This document shows, piece by piece, positions 6,078 to 57,095 of a DNA stretch of 64,000 nt. Location of the stretch: the NCBI GenBank assembly GCA_009192285.1, contig WBVU01000017.1:434001-498000 (forward strand), given 5' to 3'. The position numbers and the translations under genes were made by a program. This stretch comes from Morchella semilibera. Its lineage: Eukaryota; Ascomycota; Pezizomycetes; Pezizales; Morchellaceae. Every line of letters begins with the position of its first letter. The first letter of the stretch is position 1. The notes under the pieces were generated by a model that saw only the letters and a program-made list of their open reading frames with translations, searched no databases and was not told the DNA's origin.

Positions 6078-6752
6078 TGTCCCAGCATCTTGGCACTGGT
6101 CCCGACGATTCGATAGTCGTAGCGCTATTGTGATTGATGGGGTTATGCTAAGCGAGGATGAGGTGAGATAAGGTGAGGTTGTCGTCATTTGTTTATATGA
6201 GGTTCGGTTGCAGGTAGGATTGGTAATGGGATTTATGGAGATGGTGGAGAGGAATACAAGCTGTGGTTACATAGGGATTTCTATATGTTTCCATGAGTTG
6301 ATGTATGAGTCATACTGGACCAGTAGAAGAGATTGTTAAATAGCACGCGTAGTTGTTTTCATCAGCAAACTCAACTTAAGGCTGGAGTCTCCCAGCAGTG
6401 TCCCAGGTCTCCTGAAAGTCTCCTGAGATTCTTCAATATTTTTTAAGTCTCCTGAAGCTCAGGAGACATCAGGAGACAAATGAAGTCTTGCTGGTGTTCC
6501 TTAGTTCTTTTCTTTCTTTTCTCGCCATTTGGTCTTCAAGTTTCTGTCATCTCGCTATATAGGAATATACTCCTATCACTACGCCATAGTTCACGTTATC
6601 TTGGGACCATCGTGCAATAAAACGAAGAAGCTTATAGTATATTTCATCGTTTATATTGAGGTCTATCCGGTCCTCACTTCCCCTGTCTCGTACCTTTTTT
6701 GCCTTTGCCCTTGCCTTTACCCCTGGCCAGTACCAGTGCCTGTGCCTGTTTT
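6078..6752 (+). mobile_element. 5' LTR of element C, 3'-truncated by deletion
   Basis: It begins TGTCCCAGCATCTTGGCA and shares the GA LTR layout up to the TTGCC-rich U5 segment. At about 6752 it jumps directly into gag sequence (starting at the FAEFQRYAADSEF block), so the end of the LTR, the primer-binding site and the first half of gag are missing. A 137-bp element sits inside it. Confidence 0.75.
6360..6496 (+). mobile_element. 137-bp CATCAGCAA element, TT target duplication
   Basis: The ends are CATCAGCAA and TTGCTGGTG (one mutated base). TT flanks both sides (6358-6359, 6497-6498). It is inserted in the R/U5 part of the element C 5' LTR, between TGTT and CCTTAG, which are contiguous in other GA LTRs. 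Confidence 0.85.
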
Positions 6753-7010
6753 TCGGAGTACTTTGCGGAGTTCCAGCGATACGCTGCTGACTCTGAGTTT
6801 AATGAGGTTGCTAAGATTGAATGTCTTTTGTAGGGTCTTAACCAGGAGTTGAAGGCACTAATGATTCAGAATGAGACCCCGACGATGATTAAGGAGTGTG
6901 GACTCCTTCTCCAATGGCTTGATAACAAACAATAGGCACTACAGGCCAGAATTGGGAGATTTAGATTTCAGATTCTCAGTGGTACCTCTTCTCGTCCCTT
7001 TGCTCCTCGC

Positions 7011-7414
7011 TTTCATGGACACGCTAGGTTCGGAGGACTGGAACGATTGGCGGGGATGGGATTACTGTAAGCTCGGAGGCGGGGATGAGTCAGAGTAGGT
7101 TCTATGGGTTTCCGTTACGCAGGAATGTGAGACATAGTTGGGGTTACGCGAGGATATGAGTCAGGCTTGGCTCCGGAATACTGGGTATATAAGGGAGGCA
7201 ATGGTGCCTACTCCTGTACTTTCTTTCTTTCTTCTTTTCTCTTGACGCAACGTCTTCTGTAACTAGTATTCAATATACTTTATAGTCTCTACTTCTTTAG
7301 TGACTATCGCTGCCCGTTCAATCTCCTCCCCATACCTCCCTTATACTTGGGTCGTATCGTTGTCACCACTCGTGCCCTGTGGAACAAAGCTACACTGCCA
7401 CCCTCTCCTTGAGA
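7011..7414 (+). mobile_element. GE solo LTR, TSD CTCGC
   Basis: It runs from TTTCATGGA to CTTGAGA and is flanked by CTCGC at 7006-7010 and 7415-7419. It is about 100 bp shorter than the other GE LTRs. TATGAGTCA and TATATAAGGG mark the promoter (7157-7195). Confidence 0.88.
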
Positions 7415-7763
7415 CTCGCCCACTTGTTGCATCAACAACACCCCCAGTTGTACGAGGACCACCCCAACCACCACCGAAGATTGCTGCGTCAGCGGCCCAC
7501 CCTTCCTATACTCCCGGTGGACCTGTCCCTATGGATTTGTCTAATAGCTGTCGTCATCCGGATCCTAGGGAAAGGGAAGCACGTCGTGTTGAGAATTGTT
7601 GTTATTACTGTAGAGGAGTTGAACATTTGGTTAGGGATTGTACAGTTTCGCCGTCAGGAAGGGTACCATCTAGGATGAGGGGAGCATTGTTGGAACCAAA
7701 GAAGAAGAAGAAGGAAAAGGAGGAAGATATATTGTTGGATGAGGAGGAGTTAAAAGATTTGTC

Positions 7764-7901
7764 CATCAGCAAGACCTCATTTGTCTCCTGATGTCTCCTG
7801 AGCCTCAGGAGACTCAAAAAAATGTCCAAGAATCTCAGGAAAGTCTCAGGAGACCCGGGAGACTGTTGGGAGACTCCAGTCACAAGTTGAGCTTGCTGAT
7901 G
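7764..7901 (-). mobile_element. 138-bp CATCAGCAA element, TC target duplication
   Basis: Inserted just before the gag stop/pol junction of element C. The empty site is seen in A2 at about 24717-24725 (GATTCGTCCCTGGCC), against the filled site GATTTGTC-[element]-TCCCTGGCC. TC is duplicated at 7762-7763 and 7902-7903. Confidence 0.9.
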
Positions 7902-7949
7902 TCCCTGGCCTAAGCGACATAGTCCAGGGATCTCCAAAGGTTTTCTTTA

Positions 7950-10671
7950 AGGTGTCTATTTCAACGTTTTCAGTATCAGAAGAGGAGATGGATGGGAATC
8001 AATTGATGGTAGTCTGTTCTATTTCACAAAATAAAAAATCTATTGTACCCACTTATGCCTTGATTGATACTGGAGCGTCGGGATATGCATTTATTGATGA
8101 AGACTTTGTGTGCTGTCATGAACTGAAGATGAAGAATTTGAGGACTGAAAGGGAGACTGATGTGATTGATGGAAGGCCTATTGAATCAGGGAATGTGACT
8201 AGGAAGGTTACGCTAGAGCTGGAAATTGATGGAAATGTGGAGGAATGTCTTTTCTTTGTTACAAAACTAGGACATTATTCAATTGTGATTGGGATACTTT
8301 AGATGAGGAAGCATGGAGTATTGATCGATAGTGGAAGGAATAAGATTCGCTTCGAGTCATCAGTTTGTTTCGAATACTGCATAGCCAACCACAAACCTAT
8401 TGTTGCTCGAGGGATTTCGACTCCACTGCCAGAAAGACCAGTTACCCACACCTCGGCAGTTACTCCTCGATCGTTTAAGAAACTTTCTCAGGACCCTACT
8501 ATTCAGGTCTATTCGTTTATTCTATACGTTAATAAGGTATTGGAAATGCCCGCCAATCCTGATGGAAAGATTCTGATGGACTATCGACGCTTCCGACAAC
8601 TGTTCGATGAAACCAATACACTGAGGCTACCACCACATTGTCTCTATGATCATAAGATAAAGTTACAGGAAGGGATGGTACCACCTTTTGGTCCCATGTA
8701 TAGCATGTCTTGGGAGAAATTAAAGACATTAAGAGATTATCTGACTGACAATTTGAAGAAAGGATTTCTTCGGTCTAGCAATTCTCCAGCTAGAGCTCCT
8801 GTTCTATTTGTAAAGAAAGCTAATAGATCTTCACGCTTGTGCGTTGATTACCGGAAGCTAAATGTTATTACAGTTAAAGATCGATATCCTCTTCCCCTTA
8901 CACCTGAGATTATGCCAACCTTGCACAAGCCAATTACTTTACCAAGTTGGACTTACGTTGGGGATACAACCAAATTCGAATCAAAGAGGGAGGTGAATGG
9001 AAGACGGCGTTTAGAAAACGGTATAGACATTGGGAATATTTGGTAATGCCCTTTGTCTTGACAAATGCTCGCGCTACCTTTCAGCGTCGGATTAACAATA
9101 TTCTCCAGCCGTTCCTGTACCGTTGTGCTACTGCCTATCTTGATGATATTCTTATTCATTTGGAAACCTTAGAGCAACACCAGCAGGATGTGCAACAAGT
9201 GTTGGAAGCCCTGGAGGCCAATAAAGTTCACTTGAAACTAGAGAAGTGTGAGTTCACTGTACAAGAGACTAAATATTTGGGAATGATCTTGACACCAGGG
9301 GGAATAAAGATGGATCTGGCCAAGGTACAAACAATAGTAGATTGGGAGGCACCAAAGACAGTAAAGGAGGTGCAACAGTTTCTCGGGTTTGCCAATTTTT
9401 ATTGACGCTTTATTTATGCTTATTCCCGAATAGCCCGGCTATTGACTGCTCTAATAAAAAAGCATGTATGATTTGAGTAGACTCGGAGGGTGGGACAGGC
9501 TTTTCGGAGACTTGGGACTGCTTTTGCCGCCACCCCGATATTGATGCACCCGGACCCTGAGAAAGAGTTTATCGTAAAAACAGACGCGTCGGATTATGTG
9601 TCGGCAGGAATATTATCACAACGGGATAATGAACAGATTCTACACCCGGTTGCCTTCTTTTCAAAGACATATTCACCTGCGGAATGCAATTATGACATTT
9701 ACGACAAGGAGTTGTTAGCTATTATTTGTTGCTTTGAGGAGTGGAGACCTCATCTGGAGACGGCCCAATTCCAAGTTAAAGTACTTACAGATCATCGCAA
9801 TCTCGAGTATTTGATGTCGACCAAGTTATTAAATCGACGTCAAACGCATTGGGCGGGATTTTTATCCAGGTTTAATTTTATTATTCAATATAGGCTAGAG
9901 AAGCAAGGACGGAAGGTTGATATTTTGACAAGAAGGCCTAGGGATTTACCCAAGAAAGGAGATGAGAGGTTGGAATAACAAAGGCGAGTGGTTCTAAAAA
10001 AAGGGAATTTGGATCCCAAGATAAGTTTGTTAGCGGGCTCTTGGCAAATCAACCCTCTGAAGGATCATCTCCCGTACTTGATCTGTTTAACCAAGCATAC
10101 CAGTATGATAGCTTCCCAAGCAAAGTCCTATCTATTCTCTGGAACGGTGTTCGACAATCAAAAGAGATTTTGTTGGTTGAGTGTAAGGAAAGCGAGGAGG
10201 GGTTATTGCTTTACCGGAATACACTCTATATTCCTGACTATGACAAACTTAAGCTCTACTTACTATAGGAATACCACGACAAACCCTCTACTGGACACCT
10301 CGGACGATCAAAGACATTGGAACTCCTTAGCCGGAACTATTATTGGCCGACCATGCTGAAATATACAGACCGTTATGTCCAGAGTTGCCATACCTGCCGG
10401 CGGAGTAAAGCGAGTCAAAATCCTCTTCAAGGAGTCCTGCGCCCACCATCAGTACCCAAAGGACCCTTGACAGATGTAACAATAGATTTCGTAACGGAAC
10501 TTCCAGAGAGCAATGGATTTAATACTATACTCGTGGTAGTAGACCAGTTAACAAAAATGAAGTATTTAATTCCCACAATAGAAAATATCAATGCCAGGGA
10601 TCTGTCTCGTCTATATTTGGAGCATGTATGGAAGTTACATGGGCTACCAGAGACTATTGTTTCAGATCGGA
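7950..10671 (+). pseudogene. Pol remnant of element C: protease, RT, RNase H, start of integrase
   Basis: Order of domains: aspartic protease (DTGASG at about 8067-8085), RT (LCVDYRKLN, then AYLDDIL at about 9130), RNase H ([29 protein letters not shown]) and the integrase zinc-binding and catalytic core up to ETIVSDR, where a solo LTR interrupts. Stops and frameshifts are scattered. Examples are TAG in place of Trp after GIL at 8300, TGA for an Arg codon (FYRR) at about 9404 and TAG for Arg at about 10267. Most are C-to-T or G-to-A changes relative to A2. The family is a Ty3/gypsy chromovirus. Confidence 0.85.
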
Positions 10672-10841
10672 TATCACAGCTTTGCCCCCTGCACCTCGTC
10701 TTCCGCCAAGGCGTTTTCAGAGTAGGATTGTTGGTTAGTATCGGTCGATGTCGGAAGCAGGAGGACGCGTTAGGAAGGAGCTCAGGTAATGGAATGTAAG
10801 CGCTAGGAAGGACTGGGTAGTAATGAGATAGAACTAGGGTT

Positions 10842-10938
10842 CATCAGCAAGACTTCATTTGTCTCCTGATGTCTCCTGAGCCTCAGGAGACTTGGGAGAC
10901 TGTTGGGAGACTGCAGTCATAAGTTGAGTTTGCTGATA
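10842..10938 (-). mobile_element. 97-bp CATCAGCAA element with internal deletion, TT duplication
   Basis: Both ends are kept (CATCAGCAA ... TTGCTGATA), with TT at 10840-10841 and 10939-10940. About 40 bp of the central part of the 137-bp unit are missing. Confidence 0.8.
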
Positions 10939-10975
10939 TTATTGGGAATAGTATGGATGGTAAGAGAGTGAGAGA

Positions 10976-11112
10976 CATCAGCAAACTCAACTTGTGACTG
11001 GAGTCTCCAAATAGTCTCCCAGGTCTCCTGAGAGTCTCCTGAGACTCCTGGATATTTTTTGAGTCTCCTGAGACTCAGGAGACATCAGGAGACAAATGAA
11101 GTCTTGCTGATG
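10976..11112 (+). mobile_element. 137-bp CATCAGCAA element, GA target duplication
   Basis: CATCAGCAA ... TTGCTGATG, flanked by GA at 10974-10975 and 11113-11114. It lies 37 bp from the preceding copy and in the opposite orientation, inside the same GB LTR. Confidence 0.87.
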
Positions 11113-11413
11113 GAGTTTCTATGGGATTCTATGGCATGAGTCATCGGCATGAGGAAATAGTTGTATATATAGTGCCTGTTCTTTCCTATGTTTCTGCCTA
11201 CCTAGGCAACGTTTTCTTTCTGCTAGTAATCAATACTTGACTTCGGCCCTTCTGTCCTCGCCTTGTCCCTGAACCTGAACCTGAACTTGAACCTGAACTT
11301 GAACCTGAACCTGCCAGTGCCTTGCCGCTAGTATATCCCGATCTGACCCCACCTCGTCCCGTCTTTCCGACACTACCCCCGTTCGCCCCTCGTCCTGACC
11401 TCATCCCGTTAGA

Positions 11414-11755
11414 TTGAGGGACACAGTTCACCGTTGAGTTTTGGAAAGCTCTTTGCGATCGGTTGAAAATTACTCCCTGGTATTCCACCGCCTTTCAACC
11501 GTAAGCTGACGGACAAATGGAAAGAGCCAATGTGATTATGGAGCAATATTTATGCAGCTATGTCTTTTACCAACAAGATAACTGGACTAATTTCCACCCC
11601 CTTTCTGAGTTTGCTACTAATAATCATATTTCTGAAACTACTAATATATCTCCCTTCCAAGCAAACTATAGACGACATCTCTGGGTGACGTTTGTACCAC
11701 TGGCACTCCAACATGAAAAGACGGTGAATGAGGATCAGGCCAATAGGTTGGCAAG
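11414..11755 (+). pseudogene. Integrase core remnant of element C
   Basis: It encodes the region after the second catalytic Asp: TQFT..FWKAL, ERANVIMEQYL (the ERxN motif with the catalytic Glu) and TNNHISETTNISPFQANY. It is interrupted at 11755 by a GB LTR. Confidence 0.78.
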
Positions 11756-13063: not shown

Positions 13064-13099
13064 TGAGTCATCGGTGCGGGGAAATAGTTGTATTTATAG
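13064..13099 (+). promoter_or_regulatory. GB LTR core promoter: TGAGTCA site and TATA-like box
   Basis: A TGAGTCA heptamer (AP-1/Gcn4-type consensus TGASTCA) lies about 20 bp upstream of TATTTATAG. The same pair is at 31293-31299 and following in the 3' LTR. Confidence 0.5.
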
Positions 13100-15118: not shown

Positions 15119-15898
15119 TGTGACGGAGTAGCCCGACGCAAAGAAGAAGATGACAATGATAACGCAGAGGGACTCGAGGAGCACAGTGTACTCGACGAGG
15201 GGGCCGATGAAGACAGGGACAACGCCAGGCAGGCACAAGCACAGGCACCGGCGAAGACAAAGGCAAGGGCAAGAGCAAGGGCACAAGAGCACAGAGCAGA
15301 GAAAGTGAGGACCGAAGGGACCTCAACGAGAACGATGAGGGATACTATGAGTTTCCTCTTGTCAGAGGATCGAGTCTTTTGGTACGAGAGACTATGGCTT
15401 TAGAAATAGGAGTAGATTCCTATGTACCGAGATAACAGGAAGACGAGACAGAGAGAAAAGAAAGAAAGAACTAAGGAAAACATCTACATCAGCAAGACCT
15501 CATTTGTCTCCTGATGTCTCCTGAGCCTCAGGAGACTCAAAAAATGTCCAGGGATCTCAGGAGAGTCTCAGGAGACCCGGGAGACTGTTGGGAGACTCCA
15601 GTAACAAGTTGAGCTTGCTGATGTATCCCCGCTATTTAACATACCTCCTCCACCAGTCCGCCAAGACTACATATCATCATCCACAGAATCCCATAGAAAC
15701 CCGTCGCTACCACACCTCGTAATCCTCCCCACCATCTCCGCTATTTACATTACCAATCCATCACGCCACCGAACCTCCTAGAAACCTATGACGACACCCT
15801 CCACCTCGCATTCCCCGCTCTCGCTTAACATTTCCCCAACAACCACAACCGTACACTGCCCACCGAACTGTCGGGACAGATGCCAAGACGCCGGGACA
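15119..15898 (-). mobile_element. 3' LTR of A1, carrying a 137-bp element
   Basis: It begins (plus strand) TGTGACGGAGTAGCCC and ends CGCCGGGACA. The 139-bp excess over its partner LTR is exactly the small element plus its 2-bp duplication. Confidence 0.95.
15487..15623 (-). mobile_element. 137-bp CATCAGCAA element, TA duplication, with empty site in partner LTR
   Basis: TA at 15485-15486 and 15624-15625. The partner LTR at about 21218-21228 reads ACATCTATCCCCGC with no insertion, so this copy arrived after A1 integrated. Confidence 0.97.
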
Positions 15899-33468: not shown

Positions 33469-33605
33469 CATCAGCAAACTCAACTTGTGACTGGAGTCTC
33501 CCAACAGTCTCCCAGGTCTCCTGAGAGTCTCCTGAGACCCCTGGATATTTTCTGAGTCTCCTGAGGCTCAGGAGACATCAGGCGACAAATGAAGTCTTGC
33601 TGATG
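33469..33605 (+). mobile_element. 137-bp CATCAGCAA element, TT duplication
   Basis: GATG-TT-[element]-TT-TTCCTTAG, against the empty GATGTTTTCCTTAG in other GA LTRs (for example 40263). Confidence 0.93.
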
Positions 33606-36354: not shown

Positions 36355-36879
36355 TATCACGGAGCGAAGCGAAGGCGAGGGCGTGAGGTGCCAAGGTACA
36401 CAACCAAGGCGGAGCTGGACTAAGTGAATAGGCACGGGACTTGGGCACGAGAAGGAGTGGGTTTCGGGGACGAGGAACAGGGCGAGGCGGGGGTTACGAG
36501 GCGAGGACCATAGGGGTTTCCTCCTACCTTCAGAAGGCTAGGAGCGGGAAAGACGGAGGGGTAACTAGAGATCCTAAAGCTTTGTATTGGTTAAAGGATA
36601 AGAAGGTTGCGTGAAGAGGAAAGAGAAGAAGCTATCTACAAGCGAGAGCAAGACCCATATATATATCACACCGCCCGACCCGATGACTAACCCGAGTATC
36701 CCTGTACAGAACTTCATAGAACCTCCCAAGACCCCTTTTTCCGAACCCGACCTTATCCCCTATACCCGAAACCCTATTTCCGAACCGAACCCCTACTACC
36801 GAAACCCAAAGAACATAAGAGAATCCCTGACTAATCCCTCTTCCCGCAACACCACTAGACTGCGCTCCACGCCGTGATA
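36355..36879 (-). mobile_element. GD solo LTR, TSD CCATG
   Basis: TATCACGGAGC ... CCGTGATA, 525 bp, flanked by CCATG at 36350-36354 and 36880-36884. It lies within the QEYH codons of element G. Confidence 0.92.
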
Positions 36880-37017
36880 CCATGATAAACCATCAGCAGG
36901 TTACCCTGGTAGAACAAAGGCCCTTCAATTTCTCAGTCACGAATATTTTTTGCCAAATATGGGAAGATACACCGACCGCTATATCAGCAAACTCACCTTG
37001 TGACTGCAGTCTCTCAA

Positions 37018-37654
37018 CATCAGCAAGTATCACGGCGTAGAGCTCAGTTGAGTGTTGTTGCGGGAAGAGGGATTAGTCAGGGATTCTCTTATGTTCTTTG
37101 GGTTTCGGTATCAGGGGTTTGGTTCGGAAATAGGGTTTCGGGTATAAGGGATAAGGCCGGGGTCGGACATAGGAGTCTTGGGAGGTTCTATGGGGTTCTG
37201 TACAGGGTTACTTGGGTTAGTCATCGGGTCGGGTGGTGGGATATATATAGGGAGCGTGTCCTCGCTTGTAGATAGCTTTTTTCCTTTCCTCTTCACGCAA
37301 CCTTCCTGTCAATTAAGTCAAGACTTCGGGCCTTCGAGCCAACCCCTTTAGTTTCCGTTTCGCCGCGTGTTCTGTAAATTAATACGACTTCGCTCCGCCT
37401 CGCCTCGCCTCTGTCTCCTCTTCGATTTACTCTACTCCCCTGCCCTGCCCTACCACACCCCGCTTCGATTTGGTGTTATACCTTGGCACGTTCCGACCCT
37501 GTCCTCGCCTCGCTCCGTGATAGCAAGACTTCATTTGTCTCCTGATGTCTCCTTAGCCTCAGGAGACTCAAAAAATATCCAGGAGTTTCAGGAGACTCTC
37601 ATGAGACCCGGGAGACTGCTGGGAGACTCTAGTCACAAGTTGAGTTTGCTGATG
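37018..37654 (-). mobile_element. 137-bp-family element nested in another copy, AA duplication, itself split by a GD LTR
   Basis: CATCAGCAAG at 37018-37027, then the GD LTR, then GCAAGACTTC ... TTGCTGATG ending at 37654. AA flanks at 37016-37017 and 37655-37656. Net length without the LTR and its duplication is about 137 bp. Confidence 0.87.
37028..37522 (+). mobile_element. GD solo LTR in a CATCAGCAA element, TSD GCAAG
   Basis: TATCACGGCG ... CCGTGATA, 495 bp, flanked by GCAAG at 37023-37027 and 37523-37527. Confidence 0.93.
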
Positions 37655-37759
37655 AACAGTCTCCTGGGTCTCCTGAGAGTATCCTGAGACCCTTGGATAT
37701 TTTTTGAGTCTCCTGACACTCAGGAGACATCAGGAAACAAATGAAGTCTTACTGATGTA

Positions 37760-39845: not shown

Positions 39846-39982
39846 CATCAGCAAGACTTCATTTGTCTCCTGATGTCTCCTGAGTCTCAGGAGACTCAAA
39901 AAATATCCGGGGGTCTCAGGAGACTCTCAGGAGACCTGGGAGACTGTTGGGAGACTCCAGTCACAAGTTGAGTTTGCTGATG
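39846..39982 (-). mobile_element. 137-bp CATCAGCAA element, TA duplication
   Basis: TA at 39844-39845 and 39983-39984. The adjacent GA LTR later inserted right at its edge: the GA duplication GTACC starts with the last base of this element. Confidence 0.9.
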
Positions 39983-39986
39983 TACC

Positions 39987-40772: not shown

Positions 40773-41274
40773 TATAACGGCTTAGAACAAGGTTTGGCGA
40801 TGTTGCGGGAAGCGGAGTTAGTTAGGGATTCTTTTATGTTCTATGGGTTTCAGTTATGTGGGTTTGGTTTGGGGTTACAGTTCGGGAATAGGGAATAAGG
40901 TATGGGTTCAGTATTAAGGGTCTTGAGATTTTATGAGGTTCTGTACAGAGTTTTGTAGATGAGTCATCGGGTAGAAGTCGGTGGTTCATAAATAGGCTTC
41001 GCCCTCGCTTGTAGATAGTTTCTTTCCTTTCCTCTTCACGCAATCTTCTTGTCCTTTAAGTCAATATATTCTTTAGGACTCTTAGTCACCACCAAGAGAT
41101 TTCTTCTATCCCTTGAAGGACAGAAGAACACTCATAGTCTCTGCCTCGTCTATAGTCCTCTTGTCCTTACGTACTCCGCCCCTCGTTTCATCTTGCCCCA
41201 CCTCGCTTCGTTCTGCTAAACCTTGTTTCTGTAACTTGGCAAAATTAGTTTCACTTCGCTCCGACTCTGTGATA
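40773..41274 (+). mobile_element. 3' LTR of element G (GD)
   Basis: TATAACGG ... TGTGATA, 502 bp, diverged from the younger GD LTRs, directly after the polypurine tract. Confidence 0.8.
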
Positions 41275-41430
41275 CAATCCTCCCCGCAATTGAACCTCAT
41301 AGAATCTAATGATGACACTATCACCTCACTCCATTCCCTCTTCGGGTAATATAACCCCATCTGTTACAAGAGCGCTACCACTACTGAACTATCAGGACCA
41401 GTGCCAAGACGCCAGAATAATATCATTAAT
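41275..41430 (-). mobile_element. GA-like LTR fragment
   Basis: Ends in GCCAAGACGCCAGAATA, the inverted start of a GA LTR. Only the U3 terminal 150 bp are present. Confidence 0.7.
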
Positions 41431-42677
41431 ATCGTTCTCAGTCAGGTAATCTCATTCCTCTGATGAAGGCGTTTGGGGCCTTCAGGTTGGCCCAGCTACA
41501 ATTGCCGGAGGCCTATGAATTACCGCACAAAATTTTAAGGGTTTTGCCTCTGTGGCCCTGAGCCAACCTTCCAGCTCTTGAGAGTTTCCGATCAACATGT
41601 ATTCCAGATCTGGGGAATAAGCTGCTTGCCTCTGAGGTGCTGAATTGGACATTGCCCCGTAGAAGACTTGAACAGCCTTCTTAGGGTCCCCTGGAGCGGG
41701 TGGTGCGACTCGTTTCAGCGCAAGGGCTGCTAAATCATACATAGACATCACTTCAATAATGCCGGTAAATGACATCAGCGACGCAATCCCATACCAATCA
41801 TATGGATGGTACGTATCACTTGGGATAGTAGTGGCTTTTTCTGTGTCAATAACACGTACGGATATTGCAGACCTGGAAGGTATTCCTAATGTCTTCCAAG
41901 ACTTGATTACTATCTTGTAATAATTTTCGCTATCCACTACACCTTCCAAAGCTTCGTCATGTAATTTGTCTATTCTTTTGCTCTTCTGTGATAAATCTAT
42001 GATGAGATGTGCTAGGGCTGCTTGGATCTTTATCGTTTAGATGGTTAGTCAAAACTGAAATATAAAAGTAACCGTATCTGTGCATCTGCGCTGTATTGAA
42101 CACGCTGAATGTTTATTCCAGCACTTGGTAACCCAGTGTAACACGCTGGGACAATCACAACCTCAATATCAGGATAAACATTAGTGGCGTTCAACACAGA
42201 ACAAATACCAAGTACGGTTAGTTCTATATTTGAAATTGGACTGACCGGCTAAGGGATAGAGTCCTCTGAAGGCTTTTCTACTCACTTGAGCTGCAAAAAT
42301 CGTGAGGGCTTTGTGGTTCATGACATATTCGCACAAATGATTGAATAAAGAATCGCCCGAGCTGGATTCCTTCACCCAGGTTATCCTTGTCATCTCATCG
42401 GCGAGCTCTTTACGTATGTTCCAGCGTCTTAGCATCGATCCTGAGGGTTCAGTAGTCGTCAGGCTGTTGTTACTAATAAAAGAATGTTAAGCGAGGGAGG
42501 GATGTGACATGGGGAGGGTATTATCATTGGATGCTACTGTATTCTATAGCATGATGGATTTGTAATATATTTAGAGAAGATGATGGGGAGGAAGACGAGG
42601 TGTGGTTGCAATAGATTTCTATGGAGTTCTACGGATGAAGGCATGAGTCATAGTGGACTGGCGGAAGAGGATGTTAA

Positions 42678-43643
42678 TGTGACAGAGTAACCCGACGCAA
42701 AGAAGAAGATGACAATGATGACGCAGAAGGACCCGAGGAGCACAGCCTAGACGATGAGGAGACCGACGAATACAAAGGTAACACTAGGCAGGTACAAGCA
42801 CAGGCACCGGTGAAGGCAAAGGCAAGGGCACAAGGGCGTAGAGCAGGGGAAGTGAGGACCAGATGGACCTCAACAAGAACGATGAGAGATGCTATGGGTT
42901 TCCTCATGTCAGAGGATCGAGGATTTGATACGAGAGGCTATGACTTTAGAAATAGGAGTAGATTCCTATGTACCGAGATAACAGAAAGACGAGACAGAGA
43001 GGAAAGAAAGAAAGAACTAAAGAAAACATCTAACTCCGCTATTTAACACCACTCCTCCACCAGTCCGCTATGACTCAAACATCAGTTCATGGAAACCCAC
43101 AGAAACTCATCGTATCCACACCTCGTATTCCTCTCCACCATCTCCGTTATTTATATTACAAATCCATCATGCCATCGAACCTCCCAGATCCTAATGACGA
43201 CAACCTTCCTCAGCACACCCCCCTACTCGCTTGGCCATTCCTAAACAATCACAATAGCGCTTCGACTACCGAACCCTCGGGACCAATGCCAAGACGCCGG
43301 GACAATACATCAGTTCATAGAAGCCCACAGAAATCCGTCGCATTCATACCTCGTATTCCTCTCCACCATCTCCATCAGCAAGATTATACATGTCTCAGGA
43401 GATTATTTGGGTCTCAGGAGACTCAGGAGACTGTCAGGAGACTGGGGAGACTCCAGTCACAAATGGTAAAGCTTGCTGATGTCTGCTATTTGCATTACAA
43501 ATCCATCACGCCATCGAACCTCCTAGAACCCAATGACGACACCCTCCCTTTAGCAAACCCTTGCCTCGCTTAACTCTTCCTAAACAATCACAATAGCCCT
43601 ACGACTACCAAGCTCTCGGGACCGATGACAAGACGCCGGGATA
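42678..43643 (-). mobile_element. GA solo LTR with internal tandem duplication, TSD GTTAA
   Basis: TGTGACAG ... CCGGGATA, flanked by GTTAA at 42673-42677 and 43644-43648. The U3-end segment from CATCAGTTCAT to GCCGGGACA (about 43079-43308) is repeated in tandem from about 43316 to the end, and the second copy contains a 109-bp element. Confidence 0.87.
43373..43481 (-). mobile_element. 109-bp short-subfamily CATCAGCAA element, TC duplication
   Basis: CATCAGCAAG ... TTGCTGATG with TC at 43371-43372 and 43482-43483. The interior differs from the 137-bp form (ATTATTTGGGTCTC; GTAAAGCTTGCTGATG end), as in the copy at 46072. Confidence 0.88.
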
Positions 43644-43705
43644 GTTAAATAGCACGGGAAGACTTTTTCTTTAGTTCTTTCTTTCTTTTCTCTCTGTTTC
43701 GTCTT

Positions 43706-43842
43706 CATCAGTAAACTCAATTTATGACTGGAGTCTCTCAACAATCTCCCTGGTGTCCTGAGAGTCTCCTGAGACTCCTTGATATTTTTTGAGTTTCCTG
43801 AGGCTCAGGAGACACCAGGAGACAAATGAAGTCTTGCTGATG
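43706..43842 (+). mobile_element. 137-bp CATCAGCAA element, TT duplication
   Basis: CATCAGTAA ... TTGCTGATG, with TT at 43704-43705 and 43843-43844. The host LTR reads CGTCTT/CTTGTTAT on either side. Confidence 0.9.
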
Positions 43843-44062
43843 TTCTTGTTATATCGGTACATAGGAATATACTTCTATTCTTAAACCATAGTTCCTCGCA
43901 CCCAAGACCTTGTCTTTTTTAGAAGAAATTCATAGTACCTCTCATCGTTCTCATTGAGGTCACTCCCCCTGACCTGCGTCCTTTTGCCTCAGCCTTTGCC
44001 TTTGCCTTTGCCGGTGCCCATGCTTGTGCCTGCCCGGTGTTGTCTCTATCTTCGTCGGTGTT

Positions 44063-44198
44063 CATCAGCAAACTCAACTTATGACTGGAGTCTCCCAACA
44101 GTCTCCCAGGTCTCCCGAGAGTCCCCTGAGACCCCTGGATATTTTTGAGTATCCTGAGATTCAGGAGACATCAGGAGAAGAATGAAGTCTTGCTGATG
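44063..44198 (+). mobile_element. 136-bp CATCAGCAA element, TT duplication
   Basis: TT at 44061-44062 and 44199-44200. One T is missing from the central T-run. Confidence 0.9.
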
Positions 44199-44740
44199 TT
44201 CTCGTTGTACTGGCTATGCTCCTTGAGTTCTTCTACGTCATCATTGTCATCTTCTACATTACGTCGGGTTACTCTGTCACAGCATAGAGCCTTATAGATG
44301 CCATCTTTATCTAAGTGCAAGACTCTCCGGTAGTCGTATATAGTCTGGCAAATGTACTTGTCGGGCTGTTTGTATCGTGGTGCCATTTCAGGGGCCTCCT
44401 TGGACATTTGGACCCGTTTCCTGATTTGTGGGTCTAACTTGAAGGGTATGGAATATCGAGAATTAGGGGTAGGTGTCATTGAGGAGGCATTAGGGGCCAT
44501 CGATAAGCCCTTGAGAGTCCTAGATACTGAAGGCCTGAATCCTAGAGGACGTAGAACGGTGCTTTTCGCAGGCTCCTCAGATATTCCCTTCTTTTCTTTT
44601 TGGGCGCTCCAGGGTATCTCTTCCTCTGATTCCATCTCTATGTAAAATCCAATACTACTACCAGAGGCTGAATCAAGGCTAGAGTTCGAGCTCTCAATAT
44701 CAATGTACTGCCCGGGAATTAATAGTCCGACCTCATATTT

Positions 44741-45079
44741 TTTGATCCGTTCTTATCATTATGGGAGGATATGCGGCTTTGTTTTTGCCTTTGTTTAGGA
44801 GTTGCTGGGGTGTTGTCGGGGGTCTTTGGTGAAGGGTGTGGTTTGGATGCCGGCTTATAGAAAGACGAAAAAAAGCCTCATGTATATATGTTAATTGTTT
44901 GAATATAGAGTAATAGAGAGGATAAGATACCATCTTATATCATGTAGTATTAACTCTTGAAGGCTTCGAGAGACTTGAAGATAGTATAGTAAGCTTGAGC
45001 CAATGTATCGATCCTAGGAATAGCTAGAGAGAGAAGTATGAGAATAGGAGAATGCGGGGTATCTTCGATCAAACTTCAC
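44741..45079. other. Upstream side of the unknown gene
   Basis: It may contain a 5' exon of the minus-strand gene (Pro/Lys-rich frame at about 44760-44850). Otherwise no feature is recognised. Confidence 0.4.
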
Positions 45080-45712
45080 TGTGACGGAGTAAGCCGACGC
45101 AAAGTAGAAGATGACAATGATGATGCAGAAGGACTTGAGAAGCATAGTCTACTCGAGGAGGAGACCAACGAACACAGGGACAACACCGGGCAGGCACAAG
45201 CACAGGTACAGGCGAAGGTAAAGGCAAAAGCAAAGGCACAAGGACACAGAGCAGAGAGAGTGAAGGTTAGATGGACCTCAATGAGAACGATGAGAGGTAC
45301 TATGAGTTTTCCTCTTACAAGGGACAGGAGCTTGGAGAAGAGAAACTATGGCTTAGAAATAGGAGTATATTCCTATATACTGAAATAACAGGAAGACGAG
45401 ACAGAGAAGAAAGAAAAAAAAAAATTAAGGAAAACATCTATCCCTACTATTTAACACATCTCCTCCACCAGTCCACTATGACTCATATATTAGCTCATAG
45501 AATTCCATGGATATCCGTCGCAATCACATTTCGTATTTCTCTCCACCATTTCTCTTATTTACATTACAAATCAATCATGCCATCGAACCTCCTAGAACCT
45601 AATGACGACATCCCCTCCTCAGCACACCCCTTCCTCGCTTAACATTACCCTAACAATCGCAACAACGCTTCGAGTACCAAACCCTCAGGACTGATACTAA
45701 TACGCCGGGACA
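45080..45712 (-). mobile_element. GA solo LTR without matching target duplication
   Basis: TGTGACGG ... CCGGGACA, 633 bp. Left flank TTCAC, right flank CCAAC. Sequence upstream of the unknown gene lies on one side and element H RT on the other, suggesting recombination or deletion at this LTR. Confidence 0.85.
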
Positions 45713-46297
45713 CCAACTTGGTATACCACTTGGCTTTTGAGAGTCGATCCAAGGTTTCCCGAATTAAGGGTAGCAGGTATCAATTCTTAACCTCCAGCTT
45801 GTTTAGTCTTCGGTAGTCCATACACAAGCAAAAAGATCCATCGGCCTTTTTAACAAATAACATCGGGGCTCCCGCTGGGGATAAGCTTGCGCGAACAAAG
45901 CCCTTGAAGAGAGGTTCTTGTAGATATAGTCCTTTAGTGCAAGTAGTTCGTCCCTAAACATACCCTAGAGGGGGCCAAATAGTGGTTCCTTCTCTTTCTT
46001 CAGGGATATCCTATGATTATAGAGGCGACGAGGTGCTAGGTCTTGCCAGTGGGCCAGGGCTTCATCGAACACATCAGCAAGCTTTACCATTTGTGACTGG
46101 AGTCTCCTGAGTCTCCTGACGGTCTCCTGAGTCTCCTGAGACCCAAATAATCTCCTGAGACCTATGAAATCTTGCTGATTCATACTTAGCCCATTGTGGT
46201 AGTGTTCTGGGATCTTTTGTTTCTATTCATCTTTCGGGGTATCCTGGAGGGCCTTTTAAATTTTGTAAAGAATTATACTGCAAATTTGTAATTGTTT
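45713..46297 (-). pseudogene. Element H RT remnant
   Basis: It contains [14 protein letters not shown], a corrupted LFVKK region and an [12 protein letters not shown] stretch matching LCMDYRRLN of relatives, plus FGKPWIDSQKPSG. It is frameshifted and split by a 109-bp element. Confidence 0.7.
46072..46180 (+). mobile_element. 109-bp short-subfamily CATCAGCAA element, CA duplication
   Basis: CATCAGCAAG ... TTGCTGATT with CA at 46070-46071 and 46181-46182, in the RT of element H. Confidence 0.85.
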
Positions 46298-46971: not shown

Positions 46972-47108
46972 CATCAGCAAGACCTCATTTGTCTCCTGAT
47001 GTCTCCTGAGCCTCAGGAGACTCAAAAAATGTCCAGGAATCTCAGCAGAGTCTCAGGAGACCCAGGAGACTGTTGGGAGACTCCAGTCCCAAGTTGAGCT
47101 TGCTGATG
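46972..47108 (-). mobile_element. 137-bp CATCAGCAA element, GC/AC flank
   Basis: CATCAGCAA ... TTGCTGATG. The 2-bp flanks differ by one transition (GC at 46970-46971, AC at 47109-47110). It lies at the gag end of element H. Confidence 0.83.
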
Positions 47109-50659: not shown

Positions 50660-51962
50660 TTATTCTGAATACTCATGCTCTTTGGGGGCCTGCCACTTCT
50701 CAATATGCCCACGAATAAACTCGTAGACCATGAATGTCACAGCCTAATTACTGAGTTTTAGATATCATCTTTAAAATTAATCTAAGACTTGACTTACCTG
50801 CCCAGGTGCCACACGCATGATCCTAGGGGTGATCCCTTGATAAAACGCCCGGAATCCTTCATGTTTGAACATGTCTTTCGAAATTGCAACAATTCTTGAT
50901 GCCGCGCTCTCGCCCGGAACGGCTGTTGACCGCTGAAGACGTGTCTCTGGACAAACTATAAGTATATACGCGTATATAGCGAACCTAGGTCTACTCACTA
51001 ATGGTATCGATTGGCGCATTTGATAGAGGGCCCATAGCCCCGGAGATAAGACCCAATACCAGATGTTGGTAACTAGGTAACTCTTTCATCTCTGGTTGAA
51101 GTTCCTGTGCGAATTTCTTCATGTATGTGTAAGCTGTGAAGTTTACTGCCTGGTTAGTTGCTTGTCTGAGTGCGGTAAGTGTAACTCCGCGGTACAGGGT
51201 GAGAAAGCCTTCCTCGCGGATAACAGTGTAGGCAGCATGGGCAGCATTGCGATACTTTGGGATATCAAGGGGGTCTGCCATGGAGTGGTGTTGCGCCTGT
51301 AGTCGGATCTTGACAACTTCCATGGGAGTTACAACAGCGACGGCTTCCGTTGCTCCTGCCATAAGACCAGCTGTAGGTGACTTTGTTAATATATGTATAT
51401 AGGCTAGGCTTGGGGGCAGGAGTTTTTCATACAGAGGAACACAGCCTTCGCCGAGATAGCACCAGTCTCGGGGTTAACCTTGGCCAAACTTTTGTAGAAC
51501 TCGAAACTCGAAAACCGAATGGCCATTTTGGGCACAATTCCTGTAACGACGGCTCCAAGACCTTTGTAAAGACCTAAAGGGGTTTCCTTCTTGACAATGT
51601 CCTTTCCAACGGTGAAAAAACCCTTTCGTTTTACTCCTGGAGCACGATTCCGTCGAGACAGCTGCATTCGCACCTGTAATCATATTATATATTATATTAG
51701 CCGAATATCCTACTTCCGTAAGAAAAAAGAAGGTTGGACCTTAATGGTATCTAGGAAAGGTCGTCAGCAATATTTTTCCATAAAGCGCTTTAGAAATCCT
51801 TACCCAATGGGTGGCATGCGAGCGCCTCACAGAGACCCGCTCCCCCACCGGCTGCAAAGGTCTCATATCAGTAACAGAACAGCTAATGGTATATCAATAT
51901 GGGTAATAACCAATCAAAGTGACTGCCATCGTAGGTCTTTTTTTCTGTTCTGCTGGGGGCAT
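50660..51962 (-). CDS. SFC1: Mitochondrial succinate/fumarate carrier (7 exons, one of 11 nt)
   Basis: A member of the mitochondrial carrier family in the inner membrane, closest by recognition to yeast Sfc1 (Acr1). That carrier imports cytosolic succinate in exchange for fumarate and is needed for growth on C2 compounds. Exons on the minus strand: 51962-51911, 51851-51804, 51750-51740, 51673-51433, 51370-50999, 50946-50798, 50743-50660. They total 957 nt, exactly 319 codons with stop (318 aa). Three carrier repeats are marked by HPLDTIK (residues about 32-38), TPMEVVKIRLQ (about 131) and APIDTIKTRLQ (about 238). Each matches the PX[DE]XX[KR] signature. Supporting blocks are AGGGAGLCEALACHPL, QAQHHSMADPLD and GLISGAMGPLSNAPID. 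The 11-nt exon supplies DTIK of the first signature. No lesion is seen. Confidence 0.93.
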
Positions 51963-53265
51963 GGCTGTGAATATCTATAACTGATGCGATATTAGGAGGT
52001 ATTGGACTAAAGCTCGGGAGTGTCCAAATAACTATAGTTGTGCACGGTAATGTACTGAATGGCAGAGAGAACAAGGCAAAGAACAAGAGATGTGTCAGGT
52101 CTGTTGAGGGATTATAAGACTTGAGTGTGAACGGAATAAAGTTTAGATCAACTTTCCAGAGCCGAGGATGAACCGAGAGAAATTGTTCGTTTATGTTAAC
52201 TGACCGCTCCCTCTCTTTCCGGGGACTAGAGACAGGGGCCAATAATTTCATCTTGCGTCAGTTAGCAGTGTCTTTCTTTTTCCCACGCGCCTCTTGCTCA
52301 GATTCCCCCAACGCGATCCCCCTCCCTCACCCCAGGAACCAGAGACTGGGACGGATTAACCAAGTTGCTTCGGGCCAGCGGGGTGGTTTGTGCGCGGGGG
52401 GTCTCCGTGGTCGTAATAGCAACTAACAATGGCATAAAGCACCCCGAGACTTCACCGTAGTGGTTGCTTTTACGGCCCGAGGTTGGGTCCGGACGGGCGC
52501 AGTCGGAATTTACTATGTTCATGCACTATCACATGGGAAGGATTTTCGGCGAAACCAGGAACGGAGAAACAAAGAACATGCGCCATGTGCTTATCTACAT
52601 GCACTTTACTTACTCTTAGCGGAGATATTCGGGGATAACTGTGTGTAGTGATCCATTAAATCACATGATTCTGGGCAAAAAGTGGATATCTCAGAAAACT
52701 TATCTAGCTGGCAGGATAAGTCAATAGTCAAGTTTTTATCAATAAGACTTCGGTTGCTACAGCTATTACCTACCCCGTCCTATTGATGAAAATTTGGCAA
52801 GTCTATATAGTACTACAATAGAGGTTTTCAGTTACCACCGTAGACTCATTTCTAAAGTTAAAAACAAATTCATGTAGCCAAGCTGCACATCCATATGCTA
52901 TAGTAGCACAAGTAATAATCCACCTTTAGTTCTCAATGCCGAACTCAAAGTCTTCCTACAACAAATCAAACACGCATTTGCCAAATATGAATACCCAAAA
53001 CCTTTTGGGGATGATAGACAAAAAGGATAGAGAGGTATTGGAAAAGGCTCAGAGAAAGTTTATTTTTTTTTACTTTACTGAACACTTCTATTTGTATCAT
53101 CATAAGAGGTTTTATATTGGTTGCCTGACTCTAACCAATGATAATTTCTGTCACTTTACTCGCTTTACAACTGGTGATACGCTTAAGTTAAAAAATCAAA
53201 TGGAATTATTTAACTAATTATATAAATCACAGGCTTACTCCAACTCCCTATATTGAGTATGGAAA
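51963..53265. other. Upstream region of the carrier gene; no supported gene
   Basis: The first 250 bp should hold the carrier promoter and 5' UTR. Around 52300-52520 the sequence is GC-richer without coding signature. A 93-codon open frame at 52936-53217 (MPNSKSSYNKSNTHL start) is unrelated to anything I know and is not called. Confidence 0.5.
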
Positions 53266-53464
53266 CAATCTCTTGGATCTTCTGAGGCTCTTGAATATGT
53301 TTTGAGTCTCCTGAGACTCAGGAGACATCAGGGGACAAATGAGGTCTTGCTGATACAGAGTCTCCCAACAATCTTCCAAGTCTCCTGAGAGTCTCCTAAA
53401 GCTCTTGGATAATTTTCAAGTCTTCTGAGGCTCAGGAGACATCAACAGCCAAACATAGTCTTGC
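53266..53464 (+). mobile_element. Two tandem degenerate CATCAGCAA-element fragments
   Basis: The first (to about 53355) keeps TTTTGAGTCTCCTGAGAC and GGTCTTGCTGAT. The second starts at GAGTCTCCCAACAATC and reaches AGTCTTGC, where a GA LTR enters. Its last bases (CTTGCTAAT) follow the LTR at 54238. Confidence 0.8.
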
Positions 53465-54237
53465 TGTCCCGGCGTCTTGGCATCCGTCCCGAGAGTTTAG
53501 TATATCAGCAAACTCAACTTGTGACTGGAGTCTCCCAACAATCTCTCAGGTCTCCTGAGAGTCTCCTGAGACCCCTAGATATTTTTTGATTCTCCTGAGG
53601 CTCAGGAGACATCAGGAGATAAATGAAGTCTTGCTGATGTAGTCAAAGCGCTGTTGTGATTATTAAGGTAATGCTAAGCGAGGAAGGGGAGTGCTGAAAG
53701 GGGGGTTTCGTCATTGAGTTCTATGCGATTCTATAGAGTGACGGATTTGTAATATAATTTTAGAGAAGGTGGTGGGGAGGAATACGGGGTGTGGTTGCGA
53801 TGGATTTCTATGGGTTTCTATGAATGAAGATATGAGTCATAGTGGACTGGCGGAGGGGGTTGTTAAATAGTGCGGGAAGACTTTTTCTTTAGTTTCTTTC
53901 TCTCTTTTCTCTCTGTCTCGTCTTCCTGTTATCTCGGTATATAGGAATATACTCCTATTCTCAAGTCATAGTTCCTCGCCTCCAAGATCTTGTCCTCTTA
54001 TAGAAGGAAACCCATAGCACCTCTTATCGTTCTTGTTGAGGTCTATCCAGTCCTCACTCTTTCTGCTTTGTGTCCGTGTACCTTTGCTCTTTCCTTTGAC
54101 TTCCCCAATGCCTCTACTTGTACCCTCCCGGCGTCGTCCCTGTCTTCATCGGTTTCCTCGTCGAACTGGCTGTGCTTCTCGAGTCTTTCTGCATCGTCAT
54201 TGTCATCTTTTACTTTACGTCGAGTTACTCCGTCACA
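53465..54237 (+). mobile_element. GA solo LTR in a CATCAGCAA element, TSD CTTGC
   Basis: TGTCCCGG ... GTCACA, flanked by CTTGC at 53460-53464 and 54238-54242. It contains a 137-bp element. Confidence 0.93.
53503..53639 (+). mobile_element. 137-bp CATCAGCAA element, TA duplication
   Basis: TA at 53501-53502 and 53640-53641. The empty equivalent in element C reads CAGTAGTCGAAGCG (about 32070). Confidence 0.9.
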
Positions 54238-54309
54238 CTTGCTAATCTAAAACATTCAATACCCAATTGGCTATTCTATTCATGTTACAGGGTTTGGCGT
54301 TGACCGGGA

Positions 54310-54913
54310 TCAATAGAGCCGAGGTACACAACCGAGGCGGTGACAAGAACAAAGGAGAGGGACGATGATAAGAGAACCCAACTGGGGAGCAGGGTGGTGG
54401 GGCAGAGATTCTAGATGGCCTCTCAGACAAAGACTCGGACTTGGAGACAAAGATACCAGTAGACGATACTAACTACATCAGCAAACTCAACTTGTGACTG
54501 GAGTCTCCCAACAGTCTCCTGGGTCTCCTGAGAGTCTCCTGAAACTCCTGTATACTTTTTAAGTCTCCTGAGGCTCAGGAGACATCAGGGGACAAATTAA
54601 GTTTTGCTGATGTATAGTCATGGGCGATGGACGACTCAGAGGCGAGGCGAGATGAGATACTATGGAAGACTCGAGGGGGCATTGGCAAGAACTATGATTA
54701 TAACGTTGTTTATTGTGAATAAAGACACAAGGTGAAACGAAACTAAACTAGGGTTGACAACAGGAAGAACAGGTAAGGAAAGAAAGAGAAAGGAAAGGAC
54801 AAAGGAAAGATCCGTAGTAATATATATACCCCTCCTAATCCCTGTACAGTTATGACTCATAACATCGTGTAACAGAAACCCATAGAAACTCCAAGACTCT
54901 GAAAGAAAGCTTG
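54310..54913 (-). mobile_element. LTR remnant, family F, with small-element insertion
   Basis: Shares GCCGAGGTACACAACC, GGCAGAGAT and the GGGTTGACAACAGGAAGAAC block with the copy at 5.3-5.8 kb. Split by the element at 54476-54612. Its right end meets a GD LTR at 54914. Confidence 0.65.
54476..54612 (+). mobile_element. 137-bp CATCAGCAA element, TA duplication
   Basis: TA at 54474-54475 and 54613-54614. The family F copy at 5.5 kb reads GACGATATGTACTACGG here without insertion. Confidence 0.9.
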
Positions 54914-55310
54914 TGTCACGGCGTAGAACGTACTTAGTAATGTTGCGGGAAGAAGGATTAGTCAGGGATTTTCTATACTGTTCTATGAGTTTCTGAGCAG
55001 GGATTCTATGAGTCAATGTTACGCATGTATTTCTAATAGAGGGATTTCCTTTGGGTTCTATGGGTTTCTATGGTATGAGTCAGCGAAGGGATTTTGGGGC
55101 TATATATAGGGAGCTCTCTCCCTCGCTTGTAGAATTTCTCTTTCCTTCCTTTCTTCTTCACGCAACCTTCCTGTTCTTTAGCCAATACAAAGCTTTAGGA
55201 TCTCTAGCTACTATTGAGTCCTCCTGCTCCTACTTCCTAGAAGGTAAGAGGAAACCTATAGTTCTTGCCTCGTACCCCATTTCGTCTTGTTTCGTCCCCT
55301 CGTCCTTTAC
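54914..55310 (+). mobile_element. GD LTR, 3'-truncated
   Basis: Starts TGTCACGGCGTAG and follows the GD LTR through TATGAGTCAGCGAAGG and GGGCTATATATAGGG. It stops where the GA LTR begins at 55311. Confidence 0.8.
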
Positions 55311-55945
55311 TGTGACGGAGTAAACCGACGCAAAGAAGAAGATGACAATGATGATGCAGATAGACTCGAGGAGCACAGTCTGCGCGACGAGGAGGCTGAC
55401 GAAGATAGACACAACACCAGGCAGGCACAAGCACAGGCACCGGCGAAGGCAAGGGCAAGGACAAGGGCACAGGAGCGTAGGGCAGAGAAAGTGAGGACCG
55501 AATGGACCTCAACGAGAACGATGATAGTTCTTATGGGTTTCCTCTTTGTTGGAGGACAGAGTCTTTGGTACTAGAGGCTATGGCTTTGAAAATAGGAGTG
55601 AATTCCTATGTACCGAGATAACAGGAAGACGAGACAGAGAGAAAAGAAAGAAAGAACTAAGAAAAACATCTATCCCCGCTATTTAACACACCTCCTCCAC
55701 TAGTCCGCTATGACTCACACTTTCACTCATAGAACCCCATGGAAACCCGTCGCTACCACACCTCGTAATCCTTCCCACCATCTCTGCTATTCTACATTAC
55801 CAATCCATCACGCCATCAAACCTCCTAGAACCTAATGACGACAACCTCCACCTCGCGCTCCCCACTCTCGCTTAACATTGCCCTAACAACCACAACCATA
55901 CATCGCCTACCAAACTGTCGGGACAGGTGCCAAGACGCCGGGACA
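55311..55945 (-). mobile_element. GA solo LTR, flanks not matching
   Basis: TGTGACGG ... CCGGGACA, 635 bp. Flanks TTTAC and GTTGA differ, and the GD LTR does not resume on the right. Confidence 0.87.
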
Positions 55946-56262
55946 GTTGATAACAAGAACTGTAGTGAGGGGGAGTGATGTGTAGAATGAGAGCTCTGGT
56001 ACCTGGAGTTAACAAGAGCTTAAAACCACACAACGCCAAGAGATTGAATTGAACTCACAAGAGGGTTACACTAACCGCACCTAGACAAACACATAACACA
56101 ATATGAGAAGAAGAGGAACGCTACAGAATATACCAGACAGGATCCGGAGGCTGTCGAGTAAGATTACATACTGGTCTCCTGATATATTTAAATTGACGCC
56201 ATATTGAATCTTAAGGGGTACAGCGTCAACGCACTCTGTCATCACTGCCGTCATCGGGGAGT
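55946..56262. other. Left flank of the transposase gene
   Basis: No recognised gene. It may hold the promoter and 5' terminus of the DNA transposon. No CACTA-type end or CATCAGCAA end was found by eye. Confidence 0.4.
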
Positions 56263-56958
56263 GTGCTCAGACACGACACAGACCAAGTACAAATATGGGA
56301 AGACGAGGGACAAAGAGAGGTTGATATAGTGGAAGATGATATCGACCCGCCAGAAATCATACACGACTCGAGTCGCTTACCATTACGAGAACTGAATATC
56401 AATCTTATGGGGATCAATTATAACCACGATGACGAACCTCAAGAAGAGGAAGGCAATGGCGATGAGGATAGCGACCATATGATAGATATTTAAGGTCCAT
56501 CCTCTTCCGAAATTCACAAGGAGACGATCATTCCCCCAGAGGTGAGGCGAGCGGCCCAAATATATACACACATGCAATGTTTCTAATAAACGAAGGCCAT
56601 GGCAAACCCGTTAGATCAAACAGTGCCCATCCAAGAGGAAATTATAGCAGATGGACACAACAATAAGCAACAATGCCCAGTTCATGACTTCCACATGGCA
56701 ATGATGCTCTTTGTGACGAGCGCGGATCTTTCTACAACACAATACGAGGCCCTGGTCGAAGTTCTTGCTCTTGCCACTCCAGAGAGCATAAACACTCTAC
56801 CAAAGAATTTTAAGATATTGCGTGACCACTGCCGGAACCAATTCCCTTTATTACCAATCAAAGCTCGCGCTGTCGATGTGAGCCTGGATAATACACCCCC
56901 TAAGACAGAAAGTCCTAGACTGGCATATTATTTCGAAGTATCCGAATATTGTCGTATA

Positions 56959-57095
56959 CATCAGCAAGACTTCATTTGTCTCCTGATGTCTCCTGAGCCT
57001 CAGGAGACTCAAACAATATCCAGGAGTCTCAGGAGACTCTCAGGAGACCTGGGAGACTGTTGGGAGACTCCAGTCACAAGTTGAGTTTGCTGATG
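56959..57095 (-). mobile_element. 137-bp CATCAGCAA element in transposase exon, TA duplication
   Basis: TA at 56957-56958 and 57096-57097. The insertion is 139 bp including the duplication, not a multiple of three. Deleting it joins EYCRI to WLSDPKLRRS in one frame. Confidence 0.95.

Follow-up and report, generated by a model that had tools for sequence, protein, structure and literature searches.

A 137-bp inverted-end repeat family of Morchella semilibera probably represents a PlavakaB-type miniature transposon

Introduction

PlavakaB transposon families carry 5'-CATCA..TGATG-3' termini and make target duplications of 2 or 3 bp, as set out in the sections of Kojima 2025 that define them (PMC12730594), where they were reconstructed from Agaricomycotina. 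Here we analyse a small repeat in a 64,000-nucleotide stretch of the ascomycete Morchella semilibera ('the window'; assembly GCA_009192285.1, contig WBVU01000017.1, positions 434,001 to 498,000, forward strand), which we refer to as a miniature inverted-repeat transposable element (MITE). Compared with the PlavakaB families of those sections, the MITE has the same termini and a 2-bp duplication, and elements of this genome that encode the Plavaka domain PF18759 share its 3' terminus; it differs in being a gene-less element of 137 bp, in a genome where the best named matches to a Plavaka protein come from Morchella (Ascomycota, Pezizales). From these likenesses in sequence, we consider it a non-autonomous PlavakaB-type MITE family of the CACTA/EnSpm-Mirage-Chapaev-Transib (CMCT) clade that is moved in trans by Plavaka transposases, with a probability of about 0.87.

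CACTA/EnSpm elements and their non-autonomous derivatives belong to the same larger clade and, like the MITE, combine short terminal repeats with repeated subterminal modules. The EnSpm families of rust fungi given in part of PMC12730594 have CAC..GTG ends and 3-bp duplications, whereas the MITE has CATCA and 2 bp, and so neither mark of CACTA/EnSpm proper. PlavakaA, as outlined in the same source, is alike in its 2-bp duplications and transposase group, but its termini, 5'-TGT..ACA-3', are unlike CATCAGCAA and are not those of the MITE.

Non-autonomous families have been sorted by terminal motif and duplication length in Marasmius oreades, where Plavaka is among the main DNA elements (relevant sections of PMC8290104); like the MITE, they are non-autonomous and lie in a Plavaka-rich genome, a likeness by description only. 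A table for Agaricus bisporus lists 8 MITE and 28 Plavaka families and does not link them to each other (PMC7473861), and the sections of a Rhizophagus paper on MITEs define these generally, with no link to Plavaka (PMC11075540). No Plavaka MITE was named among the open-licence PMC papers searched by title and abstract opening (with Repbase and Dfam outside the search), or among the top matches of wider searches; unnamed relatives may well be present in existing repeat libraries.

Results

Seventeen bounded copies, in both orientations, lie between 6.36 and 57.1 kb of the window, as found by a search for the ends with at most one mismatch, by blastn and by analysis of a nested stretch (Table 1). 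The ends are the inverted 9-bp words CATCAGCAA and TTGCTGATG. Ten copies measure 137 bp, one each 138, 136 and 97 bp, and two 109 bp, while two are interrupted. Identical 2-bp flanks border 16 of the 17 (TA in six, TT in five, TC in two, and GA, CA and AA in one each), the sole mismatch being GC/AC at 46972. When the window was combined with loci L001-L087 of the same genome, again allowing one mismatch in the ends, identical flanks were seen in all but one of 23 copies that had both bounds, no interruption and a length of 89-150 bp; these 22 copies added TG and GC to the duplications seen.

The genome searched comprised 56.76 Mb in 23 contigs, with the window lying within contig C14. The pattern CATCAGCAA-N100-130-TTGCTGATG, corresponding to elements of 118-148 bp, occurred 612 times with exact ends, and a shorter spacing (88-117 bp) gave 58 further copies; the reversed-pattern control gave 0 in both searches. 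Among 50 distinct short places listed of these 58, 33 were of 108-109 bp and 5 of 97-98 bp, and the two 109-bp copies of the window are members of this shorter subfamily. The features of a MITE are thus all present: inverted ends, 612 exact-end copies and a length of 137 bp, too short for a transposase gene. Contigs C9/C10, C12/C13 and C21/C22 pair up as near-identical sequences whose coordinates are shifted, which would fit an assembly of two nuclear haplotypes; the genome-wide counts therefore include allelic or duplicated copies, and the pairs should be useful for studying insertion polymorphism.

Flanks were counted genome-wide for three dinucleotides, TA, TT and AA. TA stood to the left of 133 of the 612 copies and to the right of 132, and 126 copies had it at both ends, where independent sides would give 28.7 (hypergeometric P about 1e-113), while 69 copies were flanked by TT..TT and 55 by AA..AA. 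Because TA is in excess on both sides at once and TT and AA are duplicated as well, the 2-bp duplication is a general feature of the family and does not depend on TA.

Empty sites gave a second view of the duplication. The repeat that hosts the MITE at 6360 exists elsewhere without it, and among the matches listed (72 touching the two host halves, with one site-spanning match set aside) all 19 pairs of half-matches that reach the junction imply exactly 2 duplicated bases. These 19 junctions represent one insertion event compared with many relatives, not 19 events. In five other pairs the left half ends 15-16 bases early, and the gaps fit 2 bp in four and are off by one in the fifth. The empty site reads TT. 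The same matches show no second allele of the window copy, just relatives of the host repeat.

These flanks rule out a strict TA element of the Tc1/mariner kind, as TA is found on both sides in only 126 of 612 copies. A Tc1/mariner-type MITE with a relaxed TA target would fit TA being the commonest of the three flanks counted, yet we regard it as extremely improbable, since most copies are not flanked by TA, since TT, AA and, in the window and fetched loci, TC, GA, CA, GC and TG are duplicated too, and since the empty site at 6360 is TT. A short interspersed nuclear element (SINE), a solo long terminal repeat (LTR) or another RNA-copied repeat might be suggested by the small size, the high copy number and the insertions into retrotransposons (the latter recognised by eye). 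The inverted ends, the fixed 2-bp duplications and the conservation of both ends speak against all of these and leave them a negligible chance, with the SINE and solo LTR readings rejected on ends and flanks; a solo LTR-like insert within the copy at 37018-37654 makes a 5-bp duplication instead.

An initial sequence-only reading of the window had listed at least 17 bounded copies and two fragments, ten of them at 137 bp, with the same flank table, ends and orientations and with copies nested in their own kind, and all of this was reproduced (the nest being at 36982-37757). The genome search that it proposed, with the 9-bp ends and spacing, yielded the 612 copies and empty control described above. 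Its 2-bp duplication was borne out both by the genome-wide flanks and by the empty sites, and its exclusion of a strict TA target stands, given the duplicated TT and AA.

Twenty full-length copies from the window and loci L001-L087 differ from their own consensus by 0.7-9.4%. None of 200 dinucleotide shuffles folds as well as the consensus does in single-stranded form (z -4.1), and a 109-bp copy has a z of -4.95. The internal module TCTCCTGA/TCAGGAGA is present five times in the 137-bp MITE, compared with a shuffle mean of 0.1 (one mismatch allowed).

Candidate transposase sources are plentiful in the same genome. At least 128 matches to the Plavaka domain PF18759 were found (123 of 153 candidates scored), with 0 in 14 control genomes; the matches are pieces of exons, so there are fewer Plavaka elements than 128. 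The nearest named Plavaka proteins to the transposase of locus L064 belong to Morchella importuna, at 66% identity, and Morchella sextelata, at 64%; Terfezia and Tuber come well behind among named records, at about 30%, with basidiomycetes similar or lower in identity and score. For the coronin gene of the window, a search whose length rule leaves out full-length proteins listed 120 of 1028 hits, and among these the named ones, at about 64-72% identity, come from Pezizomycotina, except for a single record labelled a bacterial MAG. Judged from these two proteins, the host is probably a member of the Pezizales distinct from M. importuna and M. sextelata.

The Plavaka 3' terminus here reads CATCAGCAAG. 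Two families showed the terminus in more than one copy: L064 and L061 share the 3' terminus CATCAGCAAGCTTGCAGTTGTCTC.., and in the L063 family the 3' terminus CATCAGCAAGATTCAAAC.. ends at TTGCTGATG, at the same base in four of four copies and with other sequence beyond. Among twelve further Plavaka 3' stretches, the exact CATCAGCAAGCTTG terminus was present in seven (L076, L077, L078, L080, L081, L084 and L085). Several Plavaka loci have a TTGCTGATG at position 1783, which was rejected as an element end because it falls inside the domain match.

Genome-wide, CATCAGCAAGCTTG occurs at 37 places (control 0), which include allelic pairs and are not fully independent. Thirty of them sit 1.4-3.1 kb 3' of a Plavaka domain when compared with all 128 domain matches, each in the orientation expected of a 3' terminus. 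Places drawn at random from the same contigs and strands gave a mean of 0.33 and a maximum of 3 of 37. The other seven have no Plavaka domain within 6 kb, and at two of these (C21:784499 and C22:785920) a subterminal repeat of the L085 type adjoins the word.

This association bears on the possibility that the MITE is a member of a different CMCT lineage (CACTA/EnSpm, Chapaev, Mirage, ESTA or an unnamed transposase at 56.6-60.3 kb of the window) and has the same CA..TG ends and 2-bp duplication by chance. CMCT lineages mostly have CA..TG termini and 2-5 bp duplications, according to part of PMC12730594. The second transposase family in the window has 26 matches in the genome and is weakly Plavaka-like (E 0.0097, below the cut-off), and two near-identical loci of it, L007 and L008, have TTGCTGATG three times on the 3' side of the match, at intervals of about 100 bp. 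We nevertheless think this explanation improbable. The terminus CATCAGCAAGCTTG is tied to PF18759 domains at 30 of its 37 places, and the TTGCTGATG trio is without the CAAG that comes next in Plavaka ends. In the remaining 24 loci of the family, covered for about 1.5 kb per side, L021 has two MITE copies, L019 and L027 each have a single word, and L012 and L013 have variants of the word, while the last 19 showed none of these.

The trio itself, at L007:2900-3110 and L008:2900-3112, may be either a repeat or an end. In the window the second transposase-like family occupies 56590-60315, where the MITE at 56959 is little diverged; it has a longer relative at L006, which gave the E value of 0.0097, and may represent another CMCT lineage.

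Within Plavaka, we compared nine 3' ends with two MITE sequences (137 bp and 109 bp), using 500 shuffles for each; the shuffle counts are uncorrected for this number of comparisons. The L063 3' end and the 137-bp MITE have GAGAGTCTCCTGAG in common beyond the 9-bp ends, which 1 of 500 dinucleotide shuffles reached. The same 306-bp end holds seven near-copies of the TCTCCTGA/TCAGGAGA module (mean 0.28 and maximum 2 in 300 mononucleotide shuffles), and near-copies exceed shuffles more weakly in the L085 (four) and L080 (three) ends. The L063 family is at least 10.3 kb long (C2:1737800-1748077), and its upstream 3.2 kb is matched by at least 10 other places over at least 3,200 bases at 95-100% identity (40 of 104 candidates scored). 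Identity between copies rises to 100%, so there was a source that moved recently.

Discussion

The assignment to PlavakaB draws on two likenesses and on part of a third. The CATCA..TGATG termini are matched by the 612 MITE copies with exact CATCAGCAA/TTGCTGATG ends; the duplication of 2 or 3 bp is matched in the window (16 of 17), in the wider sample (22 of 23), in the TA test and at all 19 empty junctions listed; and, of the ends of PF18759-coding elements, the 3' end, which is the one that was read, has the terminus of the MITE.

Several observations weigh against it. The 5' end of the transposase-coding elements was not read, and no large element was seen whole, with its two ends and a 2-bp duplication of its own, because the L063-family copies continue beyond the sequence read. 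That the MITE moves at all is read from sequence, and movement in trans is what we infer from the shared ends. Five of the twelve fetched Plavaka 3' stretches (L079, L082, L083, L086 and L087) had no CATCAGCAAG terminus; for L083, CATCAGCAAGCTTG is found about 340 bp farther on than the stretch examined. Exact CATCAGCAA was not found in a 9-kb stretch of another Plavaka family, L062. Beyond the L063-family end, the first 8 flank bases are common to two of the four copies (on C2 and C7) before they diverge.

In the wider comparison, only the termini and short modules are common to the MITE and the nine Plavaka 3' ends. For six of the nine, the longest word shared with the 137-bp MITE beyond the terminus was matched in length by more than 100 of 500 shuffles, and for L085 and L080 it was reached by 37 and 32. 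Nor was L063 unique for the 109-bp copy, where L080 gave 8 of 500 and L063 9 of 500, and over the first 25 bp of the MITE L064 has 21 identical bases, four others 20 and L063 19. As L063 is closest in subterminal modules and L064 in the first 25 bp, no one Plavaka family is singled out as the driver.

If the PlavakaB assignment is right, a Plavaka transposase encoded elsewhere in the genome would bind the terminal 10 bp of the MITE and its repeated TCTCCTGA/TCAGGAGA modules, a role for the modules proposed by analogy to CACTA elements. It would then excise the MITE, which would be joined to a staggered cut with a 2-base overhang, and fill-in would yield the 2-bp duplication. Copy number would grow as in other cut-and-paste MITEs.

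The interpretation first drawn from the letters of the window is supported as to a very small mobile family whose 2-bp duplications, seen genome-wide and at empty sites, extend beyond TA. Its inference that the combination is novel, with no named fungal family known to it, is not supported, as CATCA..TGATG with 2-3 bp is the PlavakaB signature published in the sections of PMC12730594 cited above; of the transposase-coding relatives with the same ends that it suggested looking for, some exist that have the terminus at the 3' end, the one end read. What is new here is the MITE family, and its kind is already known.

An otherwise unplaced high-copy fungal repeat can now be assigned to a recently defined transposon lineage, and the non-autonomous side of PlavakaB is extended to a probable relative of morels and truffles. 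More tentatively, and with somewhat less than even confidence, this may be the first PlavakaB MITE described, and one in Ascomycota. It would then show that 137 bp holding the 10-bp terminus and a handful of TCTCCTGA-type modules give the transposase nearly all it needs in cis; several Plavaka families could also serve one MITE, since their 3' ends share CATCAGCAAG. The 137-bp MITE, with its 108-109-bp and 97-bp variants, offers a very short natural substrate on which to find out what end sequences are needed by a Plavaka transposase. In annotation, the rule 'CATCA..TGATG plus 2 bp' picks up elements of this kind that a search for TA-flanked MITEs would overlook.

Other features of the window and related loci

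Table 1 Copies of the MITE family and a Plavaka relic in the window
Feature	Position	Strand	Flanks	Remarks
MITE, 137 bp	6360..6496	-	TT/TT	host-repeat relatives without the MITE exist elsewhere
MITE, 138 bp	7764..7901	+	TC/TC	at 3' end of gag-like open frame (recognised by eye)
MITE, 97 bp	10842..10938	+	TT/TT	internal deletion
MITE, 137 bp	10976..11112	-	GA/GA	
MITE, 137 bp	15487..15623	+	TA/TA	
MITE, 137 bp	33469..33605	-	TT/TT	
MITE, interrupted	36982..37757	-	TA/TA	interrupted by copy 37018..37654
MITE, nested	37018..37654	+	AA/AA	in copy 36982..37757; split by solo LTR-like insert
MITE, 137 bp	39846..39982	+	TA/TA	
Relic of L063 Plavaka family	41420..45080	+ (strand of L063)		second-protein region; 86-88% DNA identity
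MITE, 109-bp subfamily	43373..43481	+	TC/TC	
MITE, 137 bp	43706..43842	-	TT/TT	
MITE, 136 bp	44063..44198	-	TT/TT	
MITE, 109-bp subfamily	46072..46180	-	CA/CA	
MITE, 137 bp	46972..47108	+	GC/AC	mismatched flanks
Two MITE fragments	53278..53466	-		53278-53354 and 53358-53466; blastn
MITE, 137 bp	53503..53639	-	TA/TA	
MITE, 137 bp	54476..54612	-	TA/TA	
MITE, 137 bp	56959..57095	+	TA/TA	0.7% from consensus; start of transposase-like region; placed in a transposase exon by the initial reading

In the nest, subtracting the 637 bp of the inner copy and one 2-bp AA duplication from the 776 bp of the outer copy leaves exactly 137 bp. The inner copy was considered as a larger, 637-bp relative of the MITE and rejected as such, being a nested copy that contains a solo LTR-like insert of 495 bp (about 37028-37522) with the 5-bp duplication GCAAG. 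Pieces similar to this insert lie at 36591-36880 and 40773-41064 of the window.

Two inserts split the L063-family relic, and three MITE copies lie in the larger one (42417-44281). At L063 itself, a second protein with an open frame of 528 aa (L063:1742-3328, - strand) is encoded opposite to the transposase and has no Pfam match at 0.001. Upstream of the transposase, L063:905-1450 is a tandem array of 101-bp units with CATCAGYAG and GGAG-rich modules in them. The word CATCAGCAG at L063:964 was rejected as the left end of the family, as it recurs in this array and many copies extend far beyond it; L063-family copies run upstream past all sequence examined.

The host repeat of the MITE at 6360 (window 6078-6359 and 6497-6748) has many clustered copies, with MITE matches among them, in clusters at C20:4602-4610 kb, C23:1207-1210 kb and C14:635-638 kb.

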